In this document: in pieces, positions 57,709-60,802 of the stretch
Position numbering within the stretch: the first letter of the stretch is position 1
How the letters are laid out: each line of letters starts with the position of its first letter
Assembly (NCBI GenBank): GCA_016187925.1
Contig: JACPIS010000023.1
Coordinates: 1-64,000, forward strand
Length of the DNA: 64,000 nt
From: Opitutia bacterium
GTDB taxonomy: Bacteria > Verrucomicrobiota > Verrucomicrobiia > Opitutales > Opitutaceae
Direction: 5' to 3'
Made by a program: the position numbers and the translations under genes
The notes under the pieces: generated by a model
Told to the model about the DNA's origin: nothing
Seen by the model: only the letters and a program-made list of their open reading frames with translations
Databases searched by the model: none

Positions 57709-58803
57709 ATGATTATCGGAGTCCCCAAAGAAATTAAGATCGGTGAGAAGCGCGTTTCCATGACCCCCAGCCTTTGCCGCCGCGTCACCGCGCTCGGCGC
57801 CAAGGTGCTCATGGAAAAGAACGCGGGCCTGACGGCCGGCTTCATCGACGCTGAATACAAGGCCGCGGGCGCGACCTTCGCCGCCTCCGCCGCCAAGGTC
57901 TGGAAGAGCGCCGACATGATTCTCAAGGTCAAGGAGCCGCTCGAGGCCGAATACGCCCTCATGCAGCAGGGCCAGACGATCTTCACCTACCTGCACCTCG
58001 CCGCCGGCCCCAAGCTCGCCACCGAGCTCTGCAAGAAAGGCATCCTCGGCATCGCCTACGAAACGGTCGAGGGCAACGACGGCTCCTTCCCGCTGCTCAA
58101 GCCCATGTCGCACATCGCCGGCCGCCTCTCGATCCAGGTCGGCGCGTATTTCCTCCAGTCGCAGGTCGGCGGCTCCGGCGTGCTGCTCGGCGGCATCCCC
58201 GGCACGATGCCCGGCCACGTGGTCGTCGTCGGCGCCGGCAACTCCGGCGCGCACGCCGTGCGCATGGCCGCCGGCATGGGCGCGCGCGTCACCGTGCTCG
58301 ACCTCGACACCCGCAAGCTCGAGGTCATGGACCAGGAATATCGCGGCAAGGTCGTCACCCTCGTGGCCAACCCCGCCAACATCGAGGCGGAGGTCGCCGA
58401 CGCGGACCTCGTCATCGGCGCCGTGCTCATCCCCGCCGCCAAGGCCCCGACCGTCGTCACCAAGAAAATGGTCAAACAGATGCGCCCCGGCTCCGTCATC
58501 GTCGACATCGCCATCGACCAGGGCGGGTGCGTCGAGGGCATCAAGTACACTTCGCACGAGAAGCCCGTCTACCAGGAGTTCGGCGTCAACCACTACGCGG
58601 TGCCCAACATGCCTGCGCTGGTCGGCCGCACTTCCACGATGGGCCTCACGCAGGCCACTGAGCCCTACGTCGCCATGATCGTGCAGAAGGGCGTCGAGCG
58701 CGCGCTCGCAGAGCACAAGGGCCTCGCTCGCGGCGTCAACACCCGCGCCGGCCGCATCGTCTACGACGAGGTCGCCAAAGCCGTCGGCTTCGACCGCGTC
58801 TGA
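57709..58803 (+). CDS. ald: Alanine dehydrogenase
   Basis: Interconverts L-alanine and pyruvate plus ammonia with NAD. The 364-aa protein has MIIGVPKEIKIGEKRVSMTP at the start, the catalytic Lys in DMILKVKEPLEAEY, His in FTYLHLAAGP, and the NAD-binding fold VVVVGAGNSGAHAVRMAAGMGA scanned in parts. ATG 57709 was chosen over the long upstream frame. A strong terminator follows. Confidence 0.96.
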   Translation: MIIGVPKEIKIGEKRVSMTPSLCRRVTALGAKVLMEKNAGLTAGFIDAEYKAAGATFAASAAKVWKSADMILKVKEPLEAEYALMQQGQTIFTYLHLAAGPKLATELCKKGILGIAYETVEGNDGSFPLLKPMSHIAGRLSIQVGAYFLQSQVGGSGVLLGGIPGTMPGHVVVVGAGNSGAHAVRMAAGMGARVTVLDLDTRKLEVMDQEYRGKVVTLVANPANIEAEVADADLVIGAVLIPAAKAPTVVTKKMVKQMRPGSVIVDIAIDQGGCVEGIKYTSHEKPVYQEFGVNHYAVPNMPALVGRTSTMGLTQATEPYVAMIVQKGVERALAEHKGLARGVNTRAGRIVYDEVAKAVGFDRV

Positions 58804-58850
58804 GTGGGCGCGGGTCGCCTTGCCGGCTTCCGCACTTCGAAAAATCCTCC

Positions 58851-58880
58851 GCCCGGCGCCTCACCGCGCCGGGCTTTTTT
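58851..58880 (+). terminator. Terminator after ald
   Basis: A 9-bp stem GCCCGGCGC (58851-58859) / GCGCCGGGC (58866-58874), 6-nt loop, followed by TTTTTT; 47 bp after the ald stop. Confidence 0.9.
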
Positions 58881-58946
58881 GTTTGCCGGGATTTGGTCGG
58901 GCCCGGCATGTTCGCCGGCGCGGGCCGCCAACCTCCTCTTCGTTCC

Positions 58947-59045
58947 ATGCATCGTTTGCTCTTCCTGCCGACCGGCTGGGCGGCCCTTTTCATCGCGTTG
59001 TGCGTGGCGCAGTTGTCCGCGCCACGCAGCCTTGCCGCCCCTGAG
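58947..59045 (+). pseudogene. Detached signal-peptide exon of the gene split at 59046
   Basis: ATG 58947 begins MHRLLFLPTGWAALFIALCV, continuing to a likely cleavage site after SLAA, and then PE at the edge of the inserted element. This frame runs on into the element and stops at 59147. The body of the gene continues at 59209 in a frame shifted by one. Removing 59046-59208 joins the two in one ORF of 533 aa. Confidence 0.75.
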
Positions 59046-59208
59046 CCGGACTCATTCAGTGAGGTCGTTGAAAATCGGGTGAAGTTTCGTGCAAGTCGTT
59101 CACACGCAGGTTCAATTTTGTCGAAACGCCTACTGCTATGCAGTTGAACTGGATGGTTCAGACGACCTGCGAATCAGATTCCCTTTCAACTGCATGAGTC
59201 CGGCTGAG
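59041..59208. mobile_element. MITE-like insertion with 5-bp target duplication
   Basis: The element spans 59046-59203 (158 bp). Its ends are a 15-bp inverted repeat with one mismatch (CCGGACTCATTCAGT at the left; ACTGCATGAGTCCGG at the right). CTGAG is duplicated on both sides (59041-59045, 59204-59208). The interior is AT-richer than the surroundings, has further internal inverted repeats (GAGGTCGT / ACGACCT-type), and encodes no transposase. It splits the surrounding gene. Confidence 0.8.
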
Positions 59209-60711
59209 CAATTTCCGGGGCTCGACGCCAAGTGGCGGGTGTATCGCACGCCGGATTTCGAGCTCTTCAGCCGGGCCTCCGAAGGCGGCTCGCGCAATCT
59301 TCTCCGCAACCTCGAGGTGATGCGCGCCGTGTTTTTCCAGTTCCTCGAACTGTCGCCGCGCGATCCGACGGAGGTTTCCATCTACTTTTTCAAGTCGGGC
59401 AGCCACTTTCAGGCGTATGCCTCGCCCGACTACCACCTCGGCAAGGACTATTACTTGATTGGCGAATACCGTAAGTTTCCGGATCGCGACGTGATAACCC
59501 TGTCACCGGAGGAGGGGCTGGAGGCCTCGCGCTGGATCGTTTACTCGAATCTCGCCCGGAGCCTCCTGCTGACGACGGGTGGTCGCGGACCCTCCTGGCT
59601 CCGCCAAGGACTCGGGATGTTCTTCGGCACGTTCGATTGTTCCGGCGATCGCGTGTTGTTGGGCGAACCCGACGCGCTGCGCCGGCGCTTGGTGAGCGAG
59701 AATCCCACGATGGACGTCGAACAGCTCTTTGTGGTGGAGGAGGGCCTGTCGGCCGTCCCGGCTCAAGATGCGACCAACCTCTTTCACGCGAAATCGTGGG
59801 TACTGCTCCACTACTGGTATTGCGGCCAGACGGAGGTGCCGCTGACGGCGGTCAACCGCTTCGTGCGCTTTGTACTCGATCCGCGCCATGCCGACGACCC
59901 CGCGCAGGTCCGGGCGGCGTTCCAGGACGCGTTCAAGATGGATTACGCGGAGATGAACCGCCGCGTCGCGCGCTACATGCGCAAGGGCCGTTTCACCGCC
60001 AAGCGCCTGCCGTTTCCCACCGTCGCCGCCGCGGACACCTATCCCGTGCGGGCGCTCGATCCGACCGAGATGCGCGAGCGGCTCGCTGAGCTGCTCCTGC
60101 GCACGCGCCGTGATCCCGCGGCGAAATTCGTGCTGCTCGACGCCATGCACGGCCCGCGTGCAGCCCGCGCCGCGGAAGCGCTGGGGAACGAGGCCGCGGG
60201 AGACCGGGACGACCGTCTTGCGCAAGACTACTGGATGCGGGCCATCGACGCTGGCACGACCAACAGCGCCGTGCTGAGTCTTGTTGCACGGATGGAGTTC
60301 GCCCGCTGGTTCGCGAACTTTGACTACTACTTCCGCCTGTCTGCGAACAAGACGGCGGAGCTGCGCGAATTGCTGGCGCGGTGCATCGCGCAGGCTCCCG
60401 ACCACCTTGAATACTACGAGATGCTGGCCTGGATCGAATCCGCTGCGCCGGAGCCGTTCATTCCGAACGTGAACCTGGTGCAGGTGAAATTCCCCTCCCT
60501 GTCGAACCCGGCGCGCACCCTGGTGCCTCTGGCTCTGATCCGTGCGCGCGTCGGCGACCGGGTCGCCGCGAAGAATCTGCTCGCCGAGATCGACCGCGCG
60601 TCACCCGGCAAGGACATCGCCGAGGTCGTCAAAAGCATCCAGCTGATCATGGAACGCGAGGACGATCTGGCGTCGCCGGCCGCCGATCGACCCCAGGACG
60701 CGCCGCGTTGA
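59194..60711 (+). CDS. Degenerate peptidase-MA-like (DUF1570-type) protein, 5' end replaced by insertion
   Basis: An ORF of 505 aa if it starts at ATG 59194 inside the right end of the inserted element (a longer frame begins at 59089, within it). Native sequence begins at QFPGLDAKWRVY. Residues about 15-210 resemble gluzincin 'peptidase MA-like'/DUF1570 domains (WRVYRTPDFELFS, VSIYFFKSGSHFQAY), but where HExxH is expected the sequence is YSNLARSLL, and PSWLRQGLGMFFG has Gln for the usual Glu, so catalysis is unlikely. The C-terminal half is helical and TPR-like. Without its signal peptide the product would be mislocalized; probably a disrupted gene. Confidence 0.65.
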   Translation: MSPAEQFPGLDAKWRVYRTPDFELFSRASEGGSRNLLRNLEVMRAVFFQFLELSPRDPTEVSIYFFKSGSHFQAYASPDYHLGKDYYLIGEYRKFPDRDVITLSPEEGLEASRWIVYSNLARSLLLTTGGRGPSWLRQGLGMFFGTFDCSGDRVLLGEPDALRRRLVSENPTMDVEQLFVVEEGLSAVPAQDATNLFHAKSWVLLHYWYCGQTEVPLTAVNRFVRFVLDPRHADDPAQVRAAFQDAFKMDYAEMNRRVARYMRKGRFTAKRLPFPTVAAADTYPVRALDPTEMRERLAELLLRTRRDPAAKFVLLDAMHGPRAARAAEALGNEAAGDRDDRLAQDYWMRAIDAGTTNSAVLSLVARMEFARWFANFDYYFRLSANKTAELRELLARCIAQAPDHLEYYEMLAWIESAAPEPFIPNVNLVQVKFPSLSNPARTLVPLALIRARVGDRVAAKNLLAEIDRASPGKDIAEVVKSIQLIMEREDDLASPAADRPQDAPR

Positions 60712-60742
60712 GCAGGCTATGTCCGCCTGACCTCTCCGACTG

Positions 60743-60769
60743 AAAAAAGGCCGGCGCGAGGCCGGCCTT
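60743..60769 (-). terminator. Terminator after the cyclophilin gene
   Basis: Stem AAGGCCGG (60747-60754) / CCGGCCTT (60762-60769), followed on the minus strand by TTTTTT. It lies 34 bp beyond the stop of the 60803 gene. Confidence 0.85.
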
Positions 60770-60802
60770 GAGAGGAGTGGGGCTGGTTTTCGCTGTAGCA
60801 GG

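Follow-up and report, generated by a model that had tools for sequence, protein, structure and literature searches.

In the window (the whole 64,000-nucleotide stretch of DNA analysed), the two parts of a gene for a secreted protein are found on the forward strand on either side of a short element. The 5' part is a leader at 58947-59045 (MHRLLFLPTGWAALFIALCVAQLSAPRSLAAPE), which is signal-peptide-like by eye and has similar counterparts at 11 loci of the same genus, and the 3' part is a leaderless body at 59209-60711. The element (59046-59203, forward strand) is 158 bp long and is bordered by a left (59041-59045) and a right (59204-59208) 5-bp duplicate, both CTGAG. Its terminal inverted repeats are 15 bp long with one mismatch: CCGGACTCATTCAGT at 59046-59060 and ACTGCATGAGTCCGG at 59189-59203, both given for the forward strand. 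The ends and duplicates, first described in a sequence-only reading of the window, were found again when the sequence from 58801 to 60800 was inspected together with a repeat scan.

The net insertion amounts to 163 nt, i.e., 1 modulo 3, so that the leader frame in its present state (58947-59147, forward strand) ends inside the element, at a stop at 59145-59147, after 66 aa. Stops are present in all three forward frames of the element, and no open frame spans the whole 158 bp in any of the six; thus it contains no transposase gene. A 19-aa frame within the element (59138-59197, forward strand) closes with a TGA that overlaps ATG 59194; this ATG, supplied by the right inverted repeat as the earlier reading had proposed, is in phase with the body, and the body is open from either ATG 59194 or GTG 59089. 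When the element and one duplicate were removed in script, 58947-59045 joined 59209-60711 in one 533-aa frame that starts with a hydrophobic leader, and the predicted element-free junction reads CCCCTGAGCAATTT. The statement that excision restores the frame therefore holds for the sequence arithmetic and, as described below, for the ancestral arrangement, but not as a demonstrated process.

To find further copies, we searched the whole host genome (3,995,137 bases in 48 contigs) with the element, which returned three matches: one in the window, one on contig C41 and one on contig C27. The C41 copy (C41:128619-128786) matches the element at all but one of the 158 bases and is flanked by a CTTAG duplicate of its own, while the C27 match (C27:333519-333673), of which one end was matched in the search, is a diverged 145-bp cousin with CTCAG on both sides. 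Thus the duplicates differ at the three host elements (CTGAG, CTTAG and CTCAG), and the host holds two near-identical copies plus one 145-bp cousin; two close copies are few for a MITE. The C41 copy follows, at a distance of a few tens of bases, what by eye is a tRNA-like gene (L004:2902-3024). At G000:C40:115678-115778 (L030) stands a shortened, 91-bp relative of the C27-type element, which lacks a matching right duplicate and is probably a decayed copy. Across 250 genomes of the family, with at most three candidates scored in each, only the host gave a match to the full 158 bp, and three other genomes had partial ones; a 158-bp element in G034 is ~72% alike by simple global alignment. A search of plasmids and phages gave no match at E 0.01.

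A partial census of paired ends in the host and its relatives was then drawn from the loci returned by the searches (among the matches listed) and from 60 chosen places in G003, G006, G013 and G029. Eight of 50 pairs (three full insertion sequences (IS) and five pairs internal to the IS ends of G025) were removed before short elements were counted; among the 42 that remained some are probably chance pairs (e.g., L038, L139 and L156), and, because overlapping pairs were collapsed, a 262-bp pair (L046) seems to mask one true element of 124 bp. Identical 5-mers flank 25 of the 42 short pairs. Moreover, 28 short pairs have CTNAG on both sides, and the free base N agrees in 24 of these, when about a quarter would be expected by chance. 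A copy in a relative (L192) has CGGAG on both sides, so the second base is part of the duplicated target; the constant outer letters of CTNAG could be a target preference. The other copies that the sequence-only reading had proposed to look for are thus the C41 copy, the C27 cousin and census copies, with matching duplicates of their own.

The same ends also belong to full-length insertion sequences. A scan with the end sequence (up to 3 mismatches) returned 59 places, versus nine for the reversed control. Exact matches numbered 23, and 16 of these lie at contig ends of the host (eight left-type and eight right-type, on C3, C4, C5, C6, C8, C9, C12 (both ends), C13, C17, C22, C24, C32, C41, C44 and C45 of G000), where the contig stops 135-143 bases inward of the CTNAG start. 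Since these 16 contig ends stop inside an element of the same type, the parent IS is probably multicopy in the host and collapsed in the assembly, with about eight or more copies. Flanking 5-mers, oriented by hand, were four CTAAG and four CTTAG at the left ends, and three CTAAG, four CTTAG and one CTGAG at the right ends. Going inward, the left class leads into a reading frame with ANQTVRLDLGTK; in the right class a frame terminates in CYAVAALAARAGKNQIISTSTA directly before the stop. An intact transposase is absent from the host assembly, in which one 41-residue fragment was found.

Intact elements with these ends were present in relatives. G025 has three IS of 1490 bp, each between matching CTNAG duplicates, and G134 has one of 1493 bp between two copies of CTAAG; the right end of the latter is 87% identical to that of the host IS (at most three candidates scored per genome). 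Their transposases match NF033539 (IS1380) above the curated cut-off (5.2e-72 for G025 and 1e-73 for G134), which supplies a transposase of the parent type, as sought by the earlier reading; the IS1380 assignment of the parent thus comes from the transposase of relatives and, for the host, from its ends. Four further IS stretches were examined: besides the intact one in G134, these were a full-length 1493-bp pair with unequal 5-mers (CTAAG and CTCAG) in G256, a stretch with no pair in G194 and one cut by a contig end in G093. Two side observations concern the host: i) a lone, diverged right end of an IS1380-type element lies within a contig (L029, G000:C46:59957) and is probably a relic; ii) two different IS ends (L009 at the start of C5 and L026 at the end of C41) have the same outer flank, GTTTTGAAATGAGTT, so the IS may have inserted into copies of a different repeat.

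To assess descent of the short element from such an IS, we trimmed 20 bases off each element end and compared the remainder with the IS ends against 1000 dinucleotide shuffles. The score against the right end of the host IS was 31, which none of the 1000 shuffles reached (mean 17.7), though it exceeds the best shuffle (30) only just. In addition, the 13-mer CTGCTATGCAGTT (59133-59145, forward strand), which lies 58 nt from the right end of the element, is identical in the right end of the host IS at 63 nt, and the motif occurs in seven of the 42 short elements. On the alignment score above shuffles and this shared 13-mer, the right part of the element is probably a worn remnant of the 3' end of a transposase gene. 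The ATGA in the right end of the element is the same overlap that contains the transposase stop of the host IS. Reversed controls for the two host IS ends were equalled by 805 and 711 of 1000 shuffles. Two other sources were rejected. The left end of the host IS, considered as origin of the left half of the element, showed no likeness beyond the repeat (901 of 1000 shuffles did as well), and the G025 IS, considered as a direct parent, had no similarity in the inner part (405 of 1000 shuffles did as well, 937 when reversed).

These properties place the element within a known kind. MITEs are described in passages of PMC4133298 as about 30-300 bp long and without a transposase gene, and in passages of PMC10969869 the prokaryotic ones are short, with inverted ends, duplicates, no transposase and the ends of an IS. 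The element is 158 bp long, has no transposase gene, carries 15-bp inverted ends and is flanked by duplicates that differ among copies; the autonomous elements with its ends are the intact 1490- and 1493-bp IS of relatives and the 16 host contig ends. For IS1380 elements, PMC4133298 lists duplicates of 4 or 5 bp and inverted ends of 16-21 bp (ISPa33, ends of 16 and a duplicate of 4; ISPsp9, ends of 21 and a duplicate of 5). The element resembles such IS in the type of its ends and duplicate, and its ends match the IS1380-family elements found here, but it lacks a transposase and is 158 bp rather than about 1.5-1.7 kb long. With no open frame through the 158 bp, it is a derivative of the IS1380 family and not a member.

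MITE insertions within genes, in-frame fusions included, are well known (passages of PMC10969869 and PMC5896051); unlike the in-frame fusions of the former, the insertion here disrupts the frame and cuts the leader off. Rickettsia palindromic elements, described in the same source as about 150 bp long, located inside genes, in-frame and translated with the host protein, are similar in size and in their location in a gene. However, the element here causes a frameshift (163 nt being 1 modulo 3, with a stop at 59145-59147) and contains stops in each of the three forward frames; it is thus not an in-frame coding MITE of the Rickettsia type. MITEPye1 of Paracoccus yeei (PMC11578231) is another MITE of low copy number that was assigned to an IS family through its ends, though these match the IS1182 family and not IS1380. 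In the literature on IS1380 with MITE, on Opitutaceae IS and on Verrucomicrobia MITEs, searched at title and abstract level, no IS1380-derived MITE was described; a word search of the text of PMC10969869 did not return IS1380, and passages of PMC11578231, PMC4133298 and PMC9330008 tied no MITE to IS1380. Thus the element belongs to the already known MITEs, as an IS1380-derived example.

Many short elements of similar build, 123-126 bp long and with like ends, were seen in G003 (e.g., L195, L198 and L040), and several frames are open in many of them. A length of 124 bp plus the 5-bp duplicate is divisible by three, so in-frame insertion as in Rickettsia is possible there. The idea that the G003 elements are translated insertions found no support: read-through frames are frequent, yet none of six tested (out of nine long ones; five from 123-125-bp elements of G003 and one from a 176-bp element of G036) matched Pfam or NCBIfam at E 0.01.

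On either strand, none of 200 shuffles folds as well as the element (z -3.42 and -4.65), as would be expected of a structured regulatory RNA or attenuator that is not a mobile element. Such a role is very hard to reconcile with the rest of the evidence: the folding follows from the inverted ends, Rfam at gathering thresholds returned only a tRNA from the window, the element breaks a reading frame, and the copy at an unrelated site has a duplicate of its own.

An open joined frame is in itself weak evidence for a split gene, since removal of the element leaves an open stretch of at least 150 codons at 22 of 34 short-element sites (that in the window included); the case is therefore carried by homologs. 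The body is single-copy in the host genome, and of the 12 other genomes in the genus, 10 gave matches to its protein. Of 16 same-genus matches we examined the top 11, which come from nine genomes, and left out five weaker ones (L080, L083, L084, L087 and L206). In all 11 loci a hydrophobic leader runs open straight into the body with no element in between, and five loci read outside the genus are also open upstream. FPG or FAG stands at the start of the body in eight of the 11, and in two of them the junction is nearly the restored one (RAAEPEFPAEKAKW vs LAAPEQFPGLDAKW). An ATG lies 18-60 codons upstream in ten of the 11, while L069 has only GTG or TTG there. Paired element ends were absent from all 11 loci, four of which had one or two unpaired 2-mismatch matches each. 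In a DNA alignment with six relatives that have the upstream gene, five showed a plain gap at the element and one (G012) had other, longer sequence in the leader region. The empty site that the earlier reading had proposed to look for was thus found as an unbroken gene without the element in the 11 loci, but not as a base-for-base bare target, the homologs read being 30-39% identical to the window protein. A genome-contig scan with the body protein as query returned no relative.

The surroundings of the gene are conserved as well. The upstream neighbour, by reading an alanine dehydrogenase, was found in six of 14 loci (81-95% identity) and the downstream neighbour, by reading a peptidyl-prolyl isomerase, in four of 14 (85-88% identity), counts that are limited by flanks of 1.5 kb or less; at least one of them accompanied the gene in eight of the 12 genomes checked. 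This arrangement bears on whether the two flanks were misjoined through the repeat during assembly, for which one may point to a 48-contig draft that breaks at 16 IS ends and to the existence of two near-identical 158-bp copies. Such a chimera is most improbable, because the duplicates match at both copies (CTGAG twice and CTTAG twice) and the genes that flank the insertion are neighbours in relatives, both occurring together in G006 and G008.

The body itself has no stops and keeps 54 of the 59 residues invariant in ten homologs, a figure among the lower rows when the homologs are left out in turn (59/70 to 59/59). Its protein had no match in Pfam or NCBIfam (E up to 0.1) or among solved structures (E up to 1); two of three homologs match DUF1570 below the curated cut-off. 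An HExxH motif followed by W..EG, as in zinc metallopeptidases, is present in seven of the 11 aligned proteins (the window protein and ten homologs) and absent from the window protein (59209-60711) and three homologs (L065, L070 and L081).

Taken together, the evidence leaves little doubt that a 158-bp MITE of IS1380-family descent, probably mobilised in trans, inserted at CTGAG after the probable signal-peptide cleavage point of a secreted-protein gene. The MITE would have arisen from an IS1380-family insertion sequence by internal deletion, and an IS1380-type transposase acting in trans would have moved it into CTGAG, a few codons after the probable cleavage point (by eye), parting the leader from the mature protein. 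The frameshift would sever the export leader and leave the body leaderless; judging from the reading frames, export of the protein has most likely been lost recently. The near identity of the two copies (one difference in 158) and the stop-free body suggest that the insertion is recent. Restoring the frame would need precise excision of the element. The sequence-only reading, in which a MITE-like insertion splits a secreted-protein gene, is borne out by the second copy, the parent ends and the unbroken relatives, and neither outcome that it had named as contrary was seen (the sequence forming part of a conserved protein in relatives, or a lack of other same-ended copies with differing empty sites).

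As it stands, the gene would make at best a leaderless protein, starting at ATG 59194 or GTG 59089. Whether the body might still be translated by a relay of restarts, yielding a cytoplasmic protein, can be judged from the frames: the 66-aa frame ends at TGA 59145-59147, a restart could occur at ATG 59138, 7 nt before that stop, the ensuing 19-aa frame ends at TGA 59195-59197, and a second restart could occur at the overlapping ATG 59194. All frames required by such a relay exist, the same ATGA overlap contains the host IS transposase stop, and the body is stop-free and conserved. However, no ribosome-binding site is seen by eye before ATG 59194, no sigma-70-like promoter was found in 58700-59400, and a recent insertion accounts equally well for the intact body; we thus regard the relay as unlikely.

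Transposases of the piggyBac type excise their elements cleanly. If a piggyBac-related IS1380-type transposase did so here, removal of the MITE would restore the frame and turn export back on in a fraction of the population. The host seems to contain the parent type in several copies, and IS1380 serves as outgroup in a piggyBac paper (PMC10813416); but no excised form was seen, the host's own transposase is not in the assembly, and a literature search on the IS1380 family with piggyBac and excision found nothing, so that such a reversible switch seems very doubtful. Slightly less probable still is its combination with the relay, in which export would be switched by seamless piggyBac-like excision while the rest of the population makes the leaderless form via the ATGA restart.

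Recent disruption by the MITE is thus the reading we retain, a clear and fairly ordinary insertion and otherwise a normal gene disruption. Annotation could miss such a disruption and would then list the body as a hypothetical, cytoplasmic protein with a wrong start. The locus provides a well-anchored IS1380-derived MITE: its parent type has been found, as has a further copy, and relatives show the gene unbroken. Its frame-restoring geometry would make it a ready reporter for precise excision by IS1380 transposases.
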